From contig VBFH01000040.1 of NCBI GenBank assembly GCA_005883575.1, positions 1-43,260 of the forward strand: a DNA stretch of 43,260 nt, read 5' to 3'. Within the stretch, counting starts at the first letter, position 1; every line of letters begins with the position of its first letter. The translations under genes and the position numbers were made by a program. Source of the DNA: Chloroflexota bacterium. Its GTDB lineage: Bacteria > Chloroflexota > Dormibacteria > Dormibacterales > Dormibacteraceae. Shown here in pieces: positions 32,172 to 40,291 of the stretch. A model generated the notes under the pieces. That model was given only the letters and a program-made list of their open reading frames with translations. It was not told the DNA's origin and did no database searches.

Positions 32172-33042
32172 CCCATAGACCTGAGTAGAAGGCGGCCGCC
32201 GCCGAACCTGACGATCAGCACGGCGAGGAACAGGAGGTGGCCCGCCATCACCGCGAGCTGTGGGTGGATCTGCGCACCCAACGTCTGAGCGACACCGAGC
32301 GCGATTCCCCCGACGAGCGTGCCCCATAGCGAGCCCATGCCGCCAATCACGACCGCCTCGAAAGCGAAGATCAGCTGCGTCGGGCCGCTGACCGGGTCGA
32401 AAACGGACCTGATGCCGAGGAAAAGGCCACCAAGCGCGGCGATGCCCACCGCGATCGCCGTAGCGCGCGCGTACACCGCGTGGCTGTCGATGCCCACAAG
32501 CTCGGCCGCGTCGGCGTCCTCGGCGGTCGCGCGCATCATCCAGCCCACGCGCGTCTTGGAGAGAAACAGCTGCAGCCCGCCAAAGACGATCACCGCGACC
32601 ACCAGCACGAGCAGGCCGAGCGCGGAGACCGAGAGACCGCTCGTCACCTGCCAGCTCGCGGTCGTCACGCTCCCGGCGCTGCCGCCCAGCGAGTGCACAT
32701 CTGGCGAGAACCCGAGCTGGAGGAGGTTCTGGATCACGATCGAGAGGCCAAAGGTCGCGAGCAGTGGAGTCAGGATTCCCGCCTTGAGGCTGCGCTCCAG
32801 AACGATGGCCTGCAGGACGTAGCCCAACACGATCATCACGGGCAGCGCCACCGCGAACGCGACGAAGGCCGAGGCGCCGGTGTGCTCGACGATGACGAAG
32901 ATCACGTACGCGCCGAGCACCGCCAGGTCGCCGTGCGCCAGGTTGATGATCCTCATCACGCCGAACATGAGCGAGAGCCCGCACGCAAGCACCGCATAGA
33001 AGGCGCCGAGAAAGATGCCCTGGAGGACCGCGTTGACGATGG

Positions 33043-33046
<4 letters not shown>
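32168..33046 (-). CDS. livH: Branched-chain amino acid-type ABC transporter permease (LivH-like)
   Basis: A 292-residue permease of the LivH branch. GAFYAVLACGLSLMFGVMRI followed by NLAHGD near the N terminus is the family hallmark, and TRVGWMMRATAEDADAAELVGI is the coupling loop. The start is TTG 33046, overlapping the livF stop (TTGA); the longer frame from 33760 is antisense to the livF reading frame. It pairs with LivM. Confidence 0.9.
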
Positions 33047-33746
<700 letters not shown>

Positions 33747-33750
<4 letters not shown>

Positions 33751-34472
33751 GCCTTCCCACCGAGGTAGGCGTCGATCACGGCGGCCTGTGCGACCACGGT
33801 GGACGGAGGTCCCTCGGCGATCACCCGTCCCGCGTCCATGCAAACGAGGCGGCCGACCACCTGGAGGAGAACGTGAACGATGTGCTCGATCCACAGCACG
33901 GCGATGCCGCGGTCGCGAAGGCCGGCCACCATCTCGACCAGCGCGGCCGACTCGGCGTCGGTCAGGCCACCCCCGATCTCATCGAGAAGCAGGACGGCCG
34001 GCTCGACCGCGAGCGCGCGCGCCAGCTCCAGACGCTTGCGCTGCATAAGGCCAAGACCCTCGGCCCGACGGTTGGCGACATGGGTGAGGCTGCACTGGTC
34101 GAGAACTTGCAGGCAGAGCTCGTACGCGTCCGGGCCTTGCTTTCCGCCGCCCGACGTCGCCGCCACCAGGACGTTCTCGAAGACCGTCATGCCGACGAAT
34201 GGCCGTGGCACCTGATGCGTCCGCGCGATGCCGAGCTTGCATCGCTCGGCCGCGCTCTTCTGGGTGACGTCGCGGTCGCGGAACGTGACGCTGCCGGAGT
34301 CGGGCGCAAGCGCGCCGGAAAGCACGTTCAAGAGAGTTGTCTTACCCGCGCCATTGGGCCCGACGATGCCGACGACCTCACCTTGCGTCAGCTTGAGGCT
34401 GACACCCTCCAGCACCGCCAGCGCGCCGAAGCGTTTCCGGACGTCGACCGCGGCGAGGACCGCCGCCTCCAC
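33747..34472 (-). CDS. livG: ABC transporter ATP-binding protein (LivG-like)
   Basis: A 241-residue ATPase. Walker A GPNGAGKT (38-45), ARTHQVPRPFVGMTVFENV (Q-loop region), Walker B AVLLLDEIGGGL and the switch histidine in WIEHIVHVL are present. The signature motif is degenerate, GLGLMQRKRLELARALA in place of LSGGQ; some LivG relatives also lack the canonical form, so activity is still likely. It follows the binding-protein gene by 3 bases and overlaps livF. Confidence 0.88.
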
Positions 34473-34475
34473 TGC

Positions 34476-35789
34476 CTAGCCCGGGTAGGGCTGCAGGGTC
34501 GAGGCGATCGGCACGTTCGTGTCGGCGGAGTTCTCGCAGATCACGAAGTCGATCGGCCACTTGGAGACGCCCTGCTTCCACTGCCCGCCGATGATCGGCG
34601 TGCTCACCACCTGCGGCACCGGCACTCCCGCGAACGAGACCGGCTTCGACCAGTCGAGGTTGCCCACCGGGGTCTCGACTTTGAGCGTCTTCATCGCCTC
34701 GATGATTTTTGAGCGGTCTTTCGGCGCGCCGCTTGCGGTCAGCGCGGCGGCGGCGACGTCGAACAGCGAGAGGCTTGCTCCCAGCTGCTGGTTCCATTGC
34801 TTGCCGCTGGTCGACTCATAGCCGTCGCCAAGCTGCTTGCTGGTGACGCCGGTCAGCGAGGACTTGTATGGCCACGTCGGCGCCCAGTACACACCAGAGG
34901 CAAGCCCATTGCCGTGTGGAGCTACCGCCGTCACCTGCGAAGGAAAAAGGCCCGTCTTCGCGATCTGACCGATCTTCACGTGCTTCGTGTACCCCTGCTG
35001 CGCGGCCTGGTTCCAGAACGTGGTGAAGTCCGGCGGGATGGGGAAGGTATTGAAGATCTGGCAGTCCTCGCGAATGAACCGCTGGATCTGGACCGTGTAG
35101 TCGTTGGTCCCGTCCTCGTACGGACCGGGATCGACGATCTGGTAACCGGCGTTCTTGAGCAGCGGTCCGAGCGCAGCTCGGATCGCGTTTCCGTCAGCAT
35201 CGTTCGGCCACATGACGGCGACCTTTTTGTTGGTCGTCACCTGCGGCCAGAGGTGCGTGTACGCGAGAAAGAACTGCTCGACGCCGAAGCAGTAGTGGAA
35301 CGTCGACTTGTACGGCGAGGGCTGGCCGGGCTTGGCGCCGCGGCCGAGATACCACGCCTCCCAGGGCACCACCGTGGAGATGCAGGGAACGCCCGCCGCT
35401 TCGCACGCGTCGGAAACCGGGTTCACGGTCTCAGGTGTGGAGGTCGCGAGCATGAGGTCGACCTTTTGAGTCTGGATCAGCTCGTTGGCGACCTGCGCTC
35501 CCACCGAGGGCGTCGATTGCCCGTCGCGGTTGACGATCTCGACCAAGTAGTTGGTACCGCCGATCGACAGCCCTTTCTTGAAGGCGCTCCGCGCCAACCC
35601 GAGCACATACGCGTCTGGTTCGCCGAATCCTGATGCCGGGCCCGTGATGGGGCTGACGAAGCCGATCTTGATCGTGCCCGACGATGTCGACGTGGTCGAG
35701 GCAAGGCAGGACTCAAGCACACCGGGGACAGTCAGGCCTCCGAGGACAAGGCCGGTGGTCTTGAGCATCTCGCGACGTGTGATTGACAA
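34476..35789 (-). CDS. Liv-type ABC transporter substrate-binding protein (Tat lipoprotein)
   Basis: A 437-residue periplasmic-binding protein of the Peripla_BP_6/LivK fold. The N terminus TRREMLKTTGLVLGG is a twin-arginine signal, followed by a lipobox-like LESC with C28, so it is probably exported folded and lipid-anchored. The mature domain starts TIKIGFVSPITGPASGFGE, as in amino acid and aromatic acid binders. Two-lobe features such as VDLMLATSTPETVNPVSDACE are present. The start is TTG 35789, with GGAGG (35800-35796, minus) 6 bases upstream. It is the first gene of the importer operon, divergent from pcaHG, which suggests an aromatic substrate. Confidence 0.88.
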   Translation of the reverse strand: MSITRREMLKTTGLVLGGLTVPGVLESCLASTTSTSSGTIKIGFVSPITGPASGFGEPDAYVLGLARSAFKKGLSIGGTNYLVEIVNRDGQSTPSVGAQVANELIQTQKVDLMLATSTPETVNPVSDACEAAGVPCISTVVPWEAWYLGRGAKPGQPSPYKSTFHYCFGVEQFFLAYTHLWPQVTTNKKVAVMWPNDADGNAIRAALGPLLKNAGYQIVDPGPYEDGTNDYTVQIQRFIREDCQIFNTFPIPPDFTTFWNQAAQQGYTKHVKIGQIAKTGLFPSQVTAVAPHGNGLASGVYWAPTWPYKSSLTGVTSKQLGDGYESTSGKQWNQQLGASLSLFDVAAAALTASGAPKDRSKIIEAMKTLKVETPVGNLDWSKPVSFAGVPVPQVVSTPIIGGQWKQGVSKWPIDFVICENSADTNVPIASTLQPYPG

Positions 35790-35847
35790 GTGACACCTCC
35801 CCTTGTGTGAGAAGTGCGCCCTGCGCCGCGCCCGGCGTGAGGCGGCT

Positions 35848-35899
35848 GGAGCGCAATTGCTCCGTGTACCGACTATCGGAGTTTGCGCCGGTTCATAAT
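35848..35899. promoter_or_regulatory. Divergent promoter region between the binding-protein gene and pcaH
   Basis: The 124-base gap contains the dyad GGAGC (35848-35852) / GCTCC (35859-35863) with a 6-base centre, a possible regulator site. CATAAT at 35894-35899 is a likely -10 for pcaH, giving a start about 8 bases before GTG 35914; no good -35 is seen. Assignment to the MarR gene at 30746 is inference. Confidence 0.4.
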
Positions 35900-35913
35900 C
35901 CTCGTCAAGGGCT

Positions 35914-36597
35914 GTGGACGACCTCGAGTACGAGCCGCCCTACCTCTATCCGGAGTACCGCTCCACCGAGCGGCGCGCGCCCAAGCAAGAATTGGTCAAG
36001 CTTCCGGACGAGTGGTTTCATCGCGCCCGCGGGCCCGCATTCGGGCGCATCCCGGTAGGGCCGGACGACGCCGACCTGACGCGCCAGCATGCGGGCGAGC
36101 CGCTCGGCGAGCGGATCATCATCACGGGCCGGGTCATCGACTCCGACGGGCGGGCGGTGCGCAGCACTTTGATCGAGATCTGGCAGGCGAACGCGGCCGG
36201 ACGGTACGTCGACCCGGTCGACGATCACCCCGCGCCACTGGACCCGAACTTCACAGGCGCTGGACGATGTCTCACGGATGACGATGGTGTGTATCGCTTC
36301 GTCACGGTCAAGCCGGGCGCGTACCCGTGGCGCAATCATGCCAACGCGTGGCGACCGGCCCACGTGCATTTCTCACTGTTCGGGCCGTCGCTGGCGAGCC
36401 GGCTAGTCACGCAGATGTACTTCGCCGGCGACCCGTTGATCCCTTTCGATCCGATCCTCAACTCGATTCCCGATCCTCGCGGTCGCCAGCTGCTGTGGTC
36501 GAGGTTCGACCTCGAGACGACGGTGCCGGAGTGGGCGCTGGGCTATCGATGGGACATCGTCTTACGTGGTCGCGACGCGACGCCCGTGGAGCCGTGA
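35914..36597 (+). CDS. pcaH: Protocatechuate 3,4-dioxygenase beta subunit (intradiol dioxygenase)
   Basis: A 227-residue iron(III) intradiol dioxygenase, beta type. The four iron ligands are in place: Y98 (NAAGRY), Y137 (GAYPW), H150 and H152 (RPAHVHFS); the spacing matches the known PcaH ligands (Tyr, then +39, +52, +54). It cleaves the ring of protocatechuate to beta-carboxy-cis,cis-muconate with PcaG. The N-terminal EYEPPYLYPEYRSTERRAP is a typical PcaH extension. Start GTG 35914 follows a CATAAT box by 14 bases. The stop overlaps pcaG (GTGA). No further ketoadipate genes are in the window. Confidence 0.9.
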   Translation: MDDLEYEPPYLYPEYRSTERRAPKQELVKLPDEWFHRARGPAFGRIPVGPDDADLTRQHAGEPLGERIIITGRVIDSDGRAVRSTLIEIWQANAAGRYVDPVDDHPAPLDPNFTGAGRCLTDDDGVYRFVTVKPGAYPWRNHANAWRPAHVHFSLFGPSLASRLVTQMYFAGDPLIPFDPILNSIPDPRGRQLLWSRFDLETTVPEWALGYRWDIVLRGRDATPVEP

Positions 36598-37007
36598 CGC
36601 CCACCCCATCGCAGACCGTTGGGCCCTTTTTCGGCTTCGCGTTGCGGCGGGTCGATGACGGCGACGGAATTCCGGTCGAAGGTCAGGTGCTGGACGGCGC
36701 GGGTGAGCCAGTCGTGGATGCGCTCATCGAAGCGTGGCGCGAGGGTGATTTCGCGCGCTGCCGCACCGATGACGAGGGGGCATTTCGTTTCACCGCCCGC
36801 AAGAGGCGGTTCCTCAACATCACGGTCTTCGCGCGTGGGCTGCTCCGACATCTCAATACGCGGATGTACTTTCCCGGCGAACAAGATGCCATCCTCGAGA
36901 TGGTCGACCCAGGGCGCCGGCACACGTTGGTCGCGAGGCCCGACGGCGAGGTTCTGCGCTTCGACATCAGGCTACAAGGCCCAGAGGAAACGGTTTTCTT
37001 CGTCTAG
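36594..37007 (+). CDS. pcaG: Protocatechuate 3,4-dioxygenase alpha subunit, compact form
   Basis: The alpha subunit of protocatechuate 3,4-dioxygenase, 137 residues and thus notably shorter than the usual 180-200. TPSQTVGPFFGFALRR opens the protein, followed by GQVLDGAGEPVVDALIEAWR and the family end VFARGLLRHLNTRMYFPGE. Loops that normally lie between the ALIEAWR strand and the FARGLL strand are missing, including most of the region corresponding to the inactive iron site. The catalytic iron is in PcaH, so a trimmed alpha subunit can still be functional. Start GTG 36594 is coupled to pcaH by GTGA; the frame open from 36327 is not family-like upstream. Confidence 0.85.
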   Translation: MTPTPSQTVGPFFGFALRRVDDGDGIPVEGQVLDGAGEPVVDALIEAWREGDFARCRTDDEGAFRFTARKRRFLNITVFARGLLRHLNTRMYFPGEQDAILEMVDPGRRHTLVARPDGEVLRFDIRLQGPEETVFFV

Positions 37008-37068
37008 CGTCGTCTGAATCTATAGAAATCTGAGCGCCACTCCGTGGTTTCCTGAGATTCTTTAACCT

Positions 37069-37647
37069 ATGGGCGTGCGGAGCTGGCTGAGTCTGGACGA
37101 AGCTGCCAGGAGGCTGAGCGTCCACCCGGCGACGCTGCGCGAGTGGGCCGACAAGGGGCGCATCCGGACGTTTCGGACGCCCGGCGGGCACCGGCGGTTC
37201 AGCGAGTCGGACATCCTCGAGCTTGGCGCGCACGCGAAGCCGGACCTATCGCTGCTCATGCATGCGACCGTCGGCCAGGCGCGAATCGCGACCAGTGGGG
37301 GGCGGCTCGCTTCTCAGACGTGGTACGCGCGCTTCGACGACGCGGCCAAGCAGCGCCACCGCGAGCTGGGCATGGAGCTGGTGCAGATGCTCGTCGCCTT
37401 TCTCGCAGACGCGGAGCGGGATTGGAGCTCGGAGATCAAACAGGTCGGCGGACGCTACGCAGAGTTGGCGCGGGAGGCGGGCCTTTCGCTGGGCGACGCG
37501 ATGCGCGCCTTCCATCTCTTCGAGGGAATAGTTCGGTCGAGTGTCAGCGAGCTTGGAGCGGCGAAGGTCGGGAGTTCGGACCTCGAGGAAAACGTCGGCT
37601 GGTTTTTGAATGAGGTGAGGGTGGCGATGGTGGAGGCATTTTCGTGA
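37069..37647 (+). CDS. MerR/excisionase-type HTH protein with helical C-terminal domain
   Basis: A 192-residue protein. Residues about 5-50, LSLDEAARRLSVHPATLREW followed by GRIRTFRTPGGHRRFSESDI, form an HTH_17/MerR DNA-binding domain as in BldC-like proteins. The remainder (about 75-190) is helical and rich in charged residues (MELVQMLVAFLADAERDW; AMRAFHLFEGIVRSSVSEL), resembling the N-terminal regions of RsbR-like or other sensor proteins, but I cannot assign a family. ATG 37069 has no ribosome site. Its stop overlaps the membrane-protein start (GTGA), so the two are coupled and probably function together. Confidence 0.8.
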   Translation: MGVRSWLSLDEAARRLSVHPATLREWADKGRIRTFRTPGGHRRFSESDILELGAHAKPDLSLLMHATVGQARIATSGGRLASQTWYARFDDAAKQRHRELGMELVQMLVAFLADAERDWSSEIKQVGGRYAELAREAGLSLGDAMRAFHLFEGIVRSSVSELGAAKVGSSDLEENVGWFLNEVRVAMVEAFS

Positions 37648-38651
37648 GCGCGTTGAATGTCGTCCTGCCGCTGGGTTCGTCGGTGCTGAGCTTCATTTTT
37701 GCGGTGATGGTGCTGGACCAGTGGTGGCAGAGGCGCCACAGCTTTCAGCTCGTCTGGGGAATCGGCTTGCTGTGGTACGGGCTCAGTGCCGGCACCGAGT
37801 TCATGGGCAGCGCGTTCGGATGGAATGAACCGCTCTACCGCATGTGGTACCTGACCGGCGCCTTCTTCGTCGCGGCGTATCTGGGCGCGGGCACGATCTA
37901 CCTGCTGTCGAAGTCACGCTTTGGCTACTTTGCGGGCGCGACGATCCTAGTAGGCGGCCTGCTCTCGTTCCTGTTCAGCCGCTCGAGCCTGTACCCAGGC
38001 TCCTCGGGAGCGGGCACGGCCGCATTCGCGATCGCTCTGGTCGGAGGGGTAGCGGTCATCATTGCGACCGCGACGCGTCGTGCATTGGCGGCGCACATCG
38101 CGATGGGGGTGCTGGCCGTCGGCTCCCTTGCGGTCGCATACATGGTGCTTGGCGCCCATCTCGCTGCTCCGGGCTGGGCGGTCGATCCACACACGCACGT
38201 TCCGGTCGGCTCTGCGTTTCCAGGCTACGTGCGCGTCTTGACTGGACCGTTCAACATCGCCGGCGCGCTGTGCCTTGTCTTCGGCGCGATCTACTCCGCG
38301 TACGTGTACATGCCCAAGAAACGGGTGCTTCCGGCCCGCCTCGCGATACTGGCCGTCACCGTGAACTTCGTCGCCTCGCTCCCCGGAGCGGTGGTCGCAT
38401 TGATCCACGGCAAGCTCAACTCGCGCGTGCCGGCGACCATCCTGATCGCGATCGGCGCGTTCATCCCGGGCCTGACGAGTGGGCTCAACCGGTTCGGCGT
38501 GACGTGGTCGTTTTTCCTCGGCGAGTTCGTCGGCCTGGTCTTGATCTTCGTCGGGTTCCTGGTCAGCGAGGAGGTGTTTCGCAACGTTCGCATCGGGACG
38601 ACGCTGTGGTCGCGCTCGTCATCGGCGTCACTCGAACGTGAGGTCGGTTGA
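37644..38651 (+). CDS. Polytopic membrane protein of unknown function
   Basis: A 335-residue protein with about nine hydrophobic segments (for example 8-26, 36-52, 70-90, 97-110, 125-143, 152-170, 207-230, 240-260, 270-282, 293-318). No transporter or enzyme signature is recognised. The conserved-looking parts are QLVWGIGLLWYGLSAGTEFM and YRMWYLTGAFFVAAYLGAGT. Start GTG 37644 is in a 4-base overlap with the HTH gene, so a regulator/membrane sensor pair is plausible. The 3' end overlaps the convergent OsmC gene by 24 bases. Confidence 0.75.
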   Translation: MSALNVVLPLGSSVLSFIFAVMVLDQWWQRRHSFQLVWGIGLLWYGLSAGTEFMGSAFGWNEPLYRMWYLTGAFFVAAYLGAGTIYLLSKSRFGYFAGATILVGGLLSFLFSRSSLYPGSSGAGTAAFAIALVGGVAVIIATATRRALAAHIAMGVLAVGSLAVAYMVLGAHLAAPGWAVDPHTHVPVGSAFPGYVRVLTGPFNIAGALCLVFGAIYSAYVYMPKKRVLPARLAILAVTVNFVASLPGAVVALIHGKLNSRVPATILIAIGAFIPGLTSGLNRFGVTWSFFLGEFVGLVLIFVGFLVSEEVFRNVRIGTTLWSRSSSASLEREVG

Positions 38652-39092
38652 GATCTCGATCGCTTTCTCGATGCTCTTCGCCACAGGGCAGCGTGACGCG
38701 TGGTGCGAATGTGCGCGTTCGGCGGCTTCGCGCTTGTCTCCGGGACAGTCTCTGAGCGTGTAATGGACGCTGATCTTCTTGATCACCAGGACCTTGTCCT
38801 CGAGATAGATCTCACCTTCGGCTTCTGAGGTAAGCCTCCCGTCGGTCGCGTCAATCCCGCGCGCTTCCAGCGCGCCACCAAGGGTCCCGGTGAGTCAACC
38901 CGCGGCGGCGGCCACGACGTAGTCGAGGGTCGTGGCCTGGTCGGGATACTGGCCGGGAGCTGTTCCGTAGTGCTCCCGCACCGCGCCGTGGGTGCCGAAG
39001 GTGATCGGCTCGGTTTCAACGGGAAGGTAAGCCTGGCGGATGGGGCCGCGCTCACGCACGATCCTCACTCGAGAGACGTAGGTCGGCTCCAT
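38628..39092 (-). CDS. OsmC-family peroxiredoxin-like protein with in-frame TGA at the peroxidatic cysteine position (candidate selenoprotein)
   Basis: One continuous frame of 154 codons from ATG 39092 to TGA 38628-38630, interrupted only by TGA at codon 66 (38895-38897). Before it is TLDYVVAAAAG and after it LTGTLGGALEARGI, the helix that holds the peroxidatic cysteine in OsmC/Ohr proteins, so the TGA replaces exactly that cysteine. The second family cysteine is C135 in SRCPVAKSIEKA. Reading through with selenocysteine gives a normal-length OsmC protein; these reduce organic hydroperoxides. A 6-bp GC hairpin 25 nt downstream has SECIS features. The alternative is a pseudogene made by a single TGC-to-TGA change. 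No other disruption is seen in the 88 codons after the TGA, which favours function. Confidence 0.75.
38859..38897 (-). promoter_or_regulatory. Candidate bacterial SECIS element after the OsmC TGA codon
   Basis: On the minus strand, the TGA (38897-38895) is followed by 19 bases and then GCGCGC (38875-38870), loop TGGAA (38869-38865), GCGCGC (38864-38859). The apical loop begins 25 nt after the TGA and has G as its second base; bacterial SECIS hairpins usually lie 16-37 nt after the UGA with a G in the first two loop positions. CACC and GGTG in the lead-in could add a small lower helix. The GC-rich genome means chance stems occur, so this is suggestive only. Confidence 0.55.
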
Positions 39093-39160: not shown

Positions 39161-40291
39161 TTACGAGCCGAGAGAATTGACCGACAGCCCCGAGTCGACG
39201 GGAGCAGTTCCCGGGTCATGCGGGACGCCAACAGTCGTGGTACCTGAGCAGGTGCCGCCGTGGCCGTCGGAGGCGGTAAACGAGACCTGGTAGACACGTC
39301 CGTCGCCGAGTCCGCTGCGCTCCGCGCGCAGCATGACCGTGTTCGATGATCCACCAGGAGTGGCGTCGGGGCTCGAGTCACCGTCACCCAGCCCGTCGGT
39401 CGGCTCATTTTGAGTTACGCCGGTGATCGTGATCGTGACCGCATCGCCGTCCGGATCGGTGGCACCCACCAATCCCACTTGTCGCAGTTGGTGGTTGGCG
39501 GGCCACAGGATGCTCGAATCAGCATGAATCTGAGAGCAATCGGGTGCTTGGTTGGGGGCGAAAGTTATGGTCACGTTCAGCTCGGTGGTGTCGTAGGAGA
39601 TATCGCCGGCCGCCCCTGGGTCGACGACAAAATAAAGCGAGTCGCCCGCGCCGACGCTTGCCTGAAGGCCACTCGGAAAGGTGGCGCTTCCACCATTGGA
39701 TATAGACCCCGACGCGATGGTGACGGTGCCAGAGTCGACGAACCAGCGAATTCCATCGCCGCCGTTGGCGTCATCGTCCGCAACGCCACCATCGATCTGG
39801 ACGATGCCCGAAACGGGACTCTTCCAGCCGACGATCGCCATCTGCGGACTCCACTCGTGCATGAAGACGCTTCCTTGGGGAATCGTGAGTGTGCAGTCGG
39901 TCTGCGGGACAGACGTCGTATTGACGCCGACGAACGGTAGGCCCGGGGCGCAGGCGGATTGATTGTCGCTGTACCAGGCGGCCACGCCGGTGATCGCGGC
40001 AAAGTTAGCGGTGAAGTGCGGCAGCAGGGTGTAGTTGCCGTCATGCGCAAAGCTGGAGCTTTGCAAGAAACTCCATACGCCAGAGTTTCCATGGCTGTCA
40101 GGCGCTGGATTGGCAGTCGGATTTGCGGCAAAGTCGGTGGCAAGGTTCCAGGTTTCAGGGGCTTGTGCCCGGCTTTCGATGCGAGTTAGTGAGAATGCCA
40201 CCATGGCAAGGAGAACCGCGGCGAGGCTAACCAAGCCGACACGTCGAAGCACAGGTCGCTCGCTGACCGTGCTAGAACCCATTCCACCCAT
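39161..40291 (-). CDS. Secreted protein of unknown function with Asp-rich C-terminal domain
   Basis: A 376-residue exported protein. The signal peptide covers about 1-43 (arginines, then a hydrophobic core VSLAAVLLAMVAFSL, cleavage after RAQA). The middle region is beta-rich with four cysteines. From about residue 255, LWPANHQLRQVGLVGATDPD followed by ITGVTQNEPTDGLGDGD is a motif seen in many secreted repeat proteins of bacteria, with likely calcium-binding acidic residues, and it ends in a Fn3-like strand pattern (YQVSFTASDGHGGTCSG). No enzyme motif is visible. ATG 40291 is taken; ATG 40282 is equally possible. Confidence 0.75.
   Translation of the reverse strand: MGGMGSSTVSERPVLRRVGLVSLAAVLLAMVAFSLTRIESRAQAPETWNLATDFAANPTANPAPDSHGNSGVWSFLQSSSFAHDGNYTLLPHFTANFAAITGVAAWYSDNQSACAPGLPFVGVNTTSVPQTDCTLTIPQGSVFMHEWSPQMAIVGWKSPVSGIVQIDGGVADDDANGGDGIRWFVDSGTVTIASGSISNGGSATFPSGLQASVGAGDSLYFVVDPGAAGDISYDTTELNVTITFAPNQAPDCSQIHADSSILWPANHQLRQVGLVGATDPDGDAVTITITGVTQNEPTDGLGDGDSSPDATPGGSSNTVMLRAERSGLGDGRVYQVSFTASDGHGGTCSGTTTVGVPHDPGTAPVDSGLSVNSLGS

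Follow-up and report, generated by a model that had tools for sequence, protein, structure and literature searches.

Here, we describe a gene in the genome of a soil bacterium of the phylum Chloroflexota that almost certainly encodes an OsmC-fold redox protein decoded with selenocysteine. The gene occupies positions 38628..39092 on the minus strand of the window, the whole 43,260-nucleotide stretch of DNA that was analysed, and specifies 154 residues, ending at an ordinary TGA stop codon (38630..38628). Its sole internal TGA, codon 66 (38895..38897, minus strand), lies where comparison of homologues places the attacking cysteine of OsmC proteins, and would be read as selenocysteine (U66). Such decoding had been claimed in the initial annotation of this DNA, and the claim is borne out by the conserved UGA, a constrained SECIS hairpin and complete selenocysteine machinery, to which we add the OsmC fold and the invariant pairing of U or C at position 66 with C135.

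The sequence features described earlier were re-read and hold: a 154-codon frame with a single TGA at codon 66, flanked by VAAAAG before and LTGTLGGALEARGI after; C135, the codon of which (38688..38690, minus strand) lies in the motif RCPVAKS, at the resolving-cysteine position according to our alignment (A3) and the CP motif of 1ukk; and a hairpin made of a 6-bp GCGCGC stem and the loop UGGAA, said to start about 20 nt past the TGA and located at 38875..38859. With a G+C content of 66%, the window has 65 open frames of comparable size that are split by a TGA, and G+C-rich hairpins are frequent, so the frame, TGA and hairpin alone would not exceed chance. What raises this case above chance is that one Pfam domain spans the TGA, that 44 of the 46 distinct homologues retain the TGA, and that synonymous positions within the stem are frozen. 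A second assembly from another sample and MAG (L027, contig VBHX01000016.1) differs at one of 465 bases and has the identical TGA and hairpin. Because that contig was independently assembled and agrees, base-calling error is excluded as the source of the TGA.

Several lines of evidence place the protein in the OsmC superfamily. PF02566 matches residues 54-149 as a single domain crossing the TGA (51.9 bits; cut-off 27.5), leaving the N-terminal third of the protein outside the match, and all 35 aligned members of the family match this model as well. A profile search of PDB sequences found no relative at 1e-3, and fold comparison was used instead. The AlphaFold (AF2) model has a pLDDT of 96.9, and its best solved matches in Foldseek are OsmC/Ohr crystal structures, with a probability of 1.00 and a TM-score of up to 0.86 by target length. 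Moreover, a homologue with cysteine at position 66 (L115) can be aligned, with a weak E-value, to T. thermophilus OsmC (1ukk), such that its Cys falls in the active-site region and its CP motif in the resolving-cysteine region. Thus, the protein has in common with the OsmC/Ohr peroxiredoxins (E. coli OsmC 1nye/1qwi, T. thermophilus OsmC 1ukk, Ohr 1n2f/1usp) both the fold and the pair of attacking and resolving residues. It differs from them in carrying Sec in place of Cys at the attacking site, in its low identity (11-21%), and in the position of its acid. The nearest conserved acid is the invariant D57, nine residues before U66, whereas Ohr has a glutamate at -10 from the attacking Cys (Glu51-Cys61; PMC5962072). 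With Asp at -9 rather than Glu at -10, the geometry may differ, and the Ohr mechanism need not transfer exactly.

From the fold and the conserved residues, we infer that the protein is probably a selenocysteine-containing OsmC/Ohr-like peroxidase; the substrate class and reductant suggested here are likewise putative. The folded protein is expected to be a homodimer in which U66 sits on the central helix. On the model of Ohr (PMC5962072), the U66 selenolate would attack and reduce a hydroperoxide. The selenenic acid so formed would be resolved by C135 as a selenenyl-sulfide, which would then be reduced by a cellular dithiol, either thioredoxin or, as in the case of Ohr, a lipoyl protein. A less likely reading is that the selenoprotein is not a peroxidase but another enzyme of the broad OsmC superfamily, acting as a selenenyl-sulfide oxidoreductase or in repair or binding. 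The family scores only about 23 bits against the OsmC, Ohr and SACOL1771 peroxidase sub-models, which have cut-offs of 86-166; the glutamate spacing of Ohr is not retained; and the host genome already encodes three Cys OsmC paralogues, which indicates that selenium is not the sole solution in this cell. Against these points stand the invariance of both redox residues and the match of the fold to OsmC/Ohr peroxidases, and we continue to favor a peroxidase.

How does this protein relate to OsmC selenoproteins already on record? The initial annotation noted that such proteins had been listed in metagenome surveys, and this is correct. An OsmC-like selenoprotein with the motif UxxT (COG1765/PF02566) was found in the Sargasso Sea survey of 2005 (PMC1088965) and again in the GOS survey of 2008 (PMC2398784), and OsmC-like selenoproteins with UxxT also appear in reviews of 2022 and 2026. 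The NCBIfam model NF041052 (OsmC_like_Se) would, from the common motif, correspond to this marine family, and we used its members to stand in for the named marine proteins MBR72571.1 and MCS5647933.1. Proteins of the NF041052 type (L146-L157 among them) occur in 26 of 400 sampled Chloroflexota genomes, nearly all with TGA, and UxxT (typically AFULLTQLA) is found in all 11 TGA-bearing loci that were read. One locus among the NF041052 members, L150, has a Cys form. The two kinds of protein have in common the OsmC superfamily, Sec for the attacking cysteine, at the same position in the helix, and a downstream bSECIS-like hairpin, and both are found in Chloroflexota. It might thus be argued that the family described here, Sec-OsmC, simply belongs to the listed one. 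We regard this as improbable, for a number of reasons. No Sec-OsmC member scores above 21.6 bits with NF041052 (cut-off 95), and the window protein falls below the listing threshold of E 0.01. The Sec-OsmC motif is UxTGT or UMYGT, and UxxT is absent; the window protein reads AAAAGULTGTLGGALEARGI where the NF041052 type has AFULLTQLA. The hairpins differ in sequence. The two families form separate clades (support 97/98 for Sec-OsmC and 98/90 for NF041052), and at least three genomes, G020, G094 and G104 (NF041052 loci on C36, C24 and C63, respectively), hold both.

Sec-OsmC is therefore best described as what is apparently an uncatalogued branch, spread across Chloroflexota, of a known kind of selenoprotein. 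A literature search, which covered few subscription journals, found no paper describing a UxTGT Sec-OsmC family. Within Chloroflexota, the scope of the homologue search, relatives are present in the organism's own genus and family; at the level of the class, 31 of 110 genomes have one, as do 36 of the 400 genomes in a phylum-wide sample. A tblastn search of plasmids found no relatives. The distribution is patchy. Several members of the genus that have the selenocysteine machinery are without the gene, indicating that it is not essential. In one MAG, G013, three different Sec-OsmC copies are seen (C223, C57, C214), two of them akin to other lineages; with a bin contamination of 9%, these may reflect binning rather than paralogy. 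Overall, we lean toward the view that this is an uncatalogued, phylum-wide OsmC family in which Sec is ancestral, the Cys and Trp forms being rare and nested; that Sec was gained independently of the UxxT type; and that one genome can hold two distantly related selenocysteine OsmC enzymes along with Cys OsmC proteins. The independence of the Sec gains is uncertain, since long Cys branches in the tree make its root uncertain.

The machinery for selenocysteine insertion is complete in this organism. A search of the source genome for selA, selB, selD and tRNA-Sec (selC), suggested at the outset as a check, reveals all four: tRNA-Sec with anticodon UCA (71.4 bits), selA (510 bits), selB (345 bits) and selD, all scoring above curated cut-offs and selA and selB adjoining on one contig. 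The selD gene (L128, G000:C86:204300-205900) has an in-frame TGA in the motif HGAGUACKL, followed downstream by a hairpin of its own, and is itself a selenoprotein gene. Most relatives' selD genes likewise have an in-frame TGA. Close to the tRNA-Sec gene (L130, G000:C42:9500-14500) are genes for a thioredoxin (TIGR01068) and for a DNA glycosylase-like protein. Among near-complete genomes, tRNA-Sec is present in all 22 that have Sec-OsmC and in 200 of the 261 that do not (p = 0.004), while the Sec-OsmC genomes in which no tRNA-Sec was detected are MAGs less than 90% complete. Given that 305 of 400 sampled genomes of the phylum (76%) have tRNA-Sec, we view this co-occurrence as weak, supporting evidence.

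The hairpin itself (GCGCGC-UGGAA-GCGCGC; 38859..38875, minus strand) has the properties of a bacterial SECIS element, as judged from pair counts, synonymous constraint, folding energy and a published model. Its first base is number 20 past the TGA, leaving a gap of 19 nt, and the distance from the UGA to the loop U is 25 nt. The bSECIS model calls for a loop of 3-9 nt, a stem of 4-16 bp, a G within the first two loop positions, a spacing of 16-37 nt and an MFE of -7.5 or lower, with the loop pattern N1-G-G-N-N2 (PMC13188914). A bSECISearch run had been proposed for this region; we applied its published constraints by hand, and the hairpin, with 5-nt loop, 6 bp, 25-nt spacing and -11.2 kcal/mol, lies within every one of these limits, the UGGAA loop matching the pattern. 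An Rfam scan of the window gave no match, which carries little weight for so short a hairpin. Comparative data are more telling. In 38 sequences, at conserved amino acids, the tree shows 0, 0, 0 and 1 synonymous changes for the stem-loop codons GCG, CTG, GCG and CGC, respectively, versus a median of 12 (minimum 5) for the 26 other four- and six-fold codons. The sole stem change, CGC to CGT, turns a G-C pair into G-U, and in the loop codon GA(A/G) the last base varies freely (7 changes). Across 43 distinct sequences, 99.3% of helix pair cells contain standard pairs, a level far above that obtained when the partner strand is slid, and double changes at one helix pair convert GC to CG and GC to AU. 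Members of the diverged UMYGT subfamily differ in stem letters and residues, but most have the helix in an unchanged position. The corresponding 17 bases of L115, the Cys homologue, have only a weak fold (-4.4 kcal/mol). We envision that SelB with Sec-tRNA(Sec) would bind the hairpin, allowing the ribosome to decode UGA-66 as selenocysteine. Other SelB/bSECIS selenoproteins (FdhF, SelD, Prx-like) similarly combine a UGA, a hairpin at 16-37 nt whose small apical loop bears a G, and SelA, SelB, SelD and tRNA-Sec; the decoding is alike, and the protein family differs.

Homologues had also been proposed as a check, for TGA or TGC at codon 66 and for the hairpin. The hairpin is conserved, as described above, and among 46 distinct homologues, with identities as low as about 40%, codon 66 is TGA in 44, the exceptions being one TGC and one TGG. 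The TGC is that of L115 (G438), a Cys form nested inside the Sec family in the tree. The TGG occurs in L108 (G098:C49), which is a decayed copy, with a frameshifted 5′ end and one stem arm mutated, in a genome that retains tRNA-Sec. These two loci could be taken to suggest that a recoded or suppressor tRNA inserts Trp or Cys at the TGA, but this is very improbable. The terminal TGA of the same gene must act as a stop, making decoding context-dependent; the context at hand is the constrained bSECIS hairpin, and the genome has tRNA-Sec, SelA, SelB and SelD, the last with a TGA of its own. Furthermore, Trp is incapable of the chemistry, and the one Trp copy is frameshifted. Finally, the notion that the TGA is a true stop, leaving a pseudogene or a mere 65-residue peptide, can draw on the behavior of ORF callers, which would terminate the frame there, and on the visible decay of L108, yet its probability is negligible, since a single Pfam domain bridges the TGA, the sequence downstream is as conserved as that upstream throughout the phylum, with no variation at columns 66 (Sec/Cys) and 135 (Cys) among the 35 proteins of alignment A3, down to 37% identity, and 44 homologues contain no other stop or frameshift.

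The neighborhood of the gene offers no operon partner that would point to the reductant. On the opposite strand, a convergent gene for a 335-aa predicted membrane protein (37644..38651, plus strand) runs 24 bp into the selenoprotein gene from its 3′ end. This protein, which has no Pfam or NCBIfam match, is a conserved neighbor in the genus, found by tblastn in the same place in 10 related loci at 64-100% identity. The upstream gene (39161..40291) is found only in the near-identical contig. Farther away, an apparent catabolic cluster at 33000..37650 of the window combines ABC transporter genes, including a binding protein of the amino-acid type (PF13458), with a gene of the protocatechuate dioxygenase type (PF00775); a MerR-type regulator gene is nearby.

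These findings bear on how selenoproteins are recognized and on why they are used. It was claimed earlier that ORF callers would split or truncate this gene, and we concur: the called frame would end at the TGA. As a consequence, a redox enzyme that is widespread in uncultured soil Chloroflexota probably goes unannotated, and the NF041052 model misses the family as well. Sec-OsmC represents a second, apparently separate Sec family in the OsmC superfamily. With Sec and Cys paralogues present in one cell, the question of why selenium is used by some thiol peroxidases can be put to a paired test, for which the Cys form L115 and the decayed Trp copy L108 are natural comparisons.
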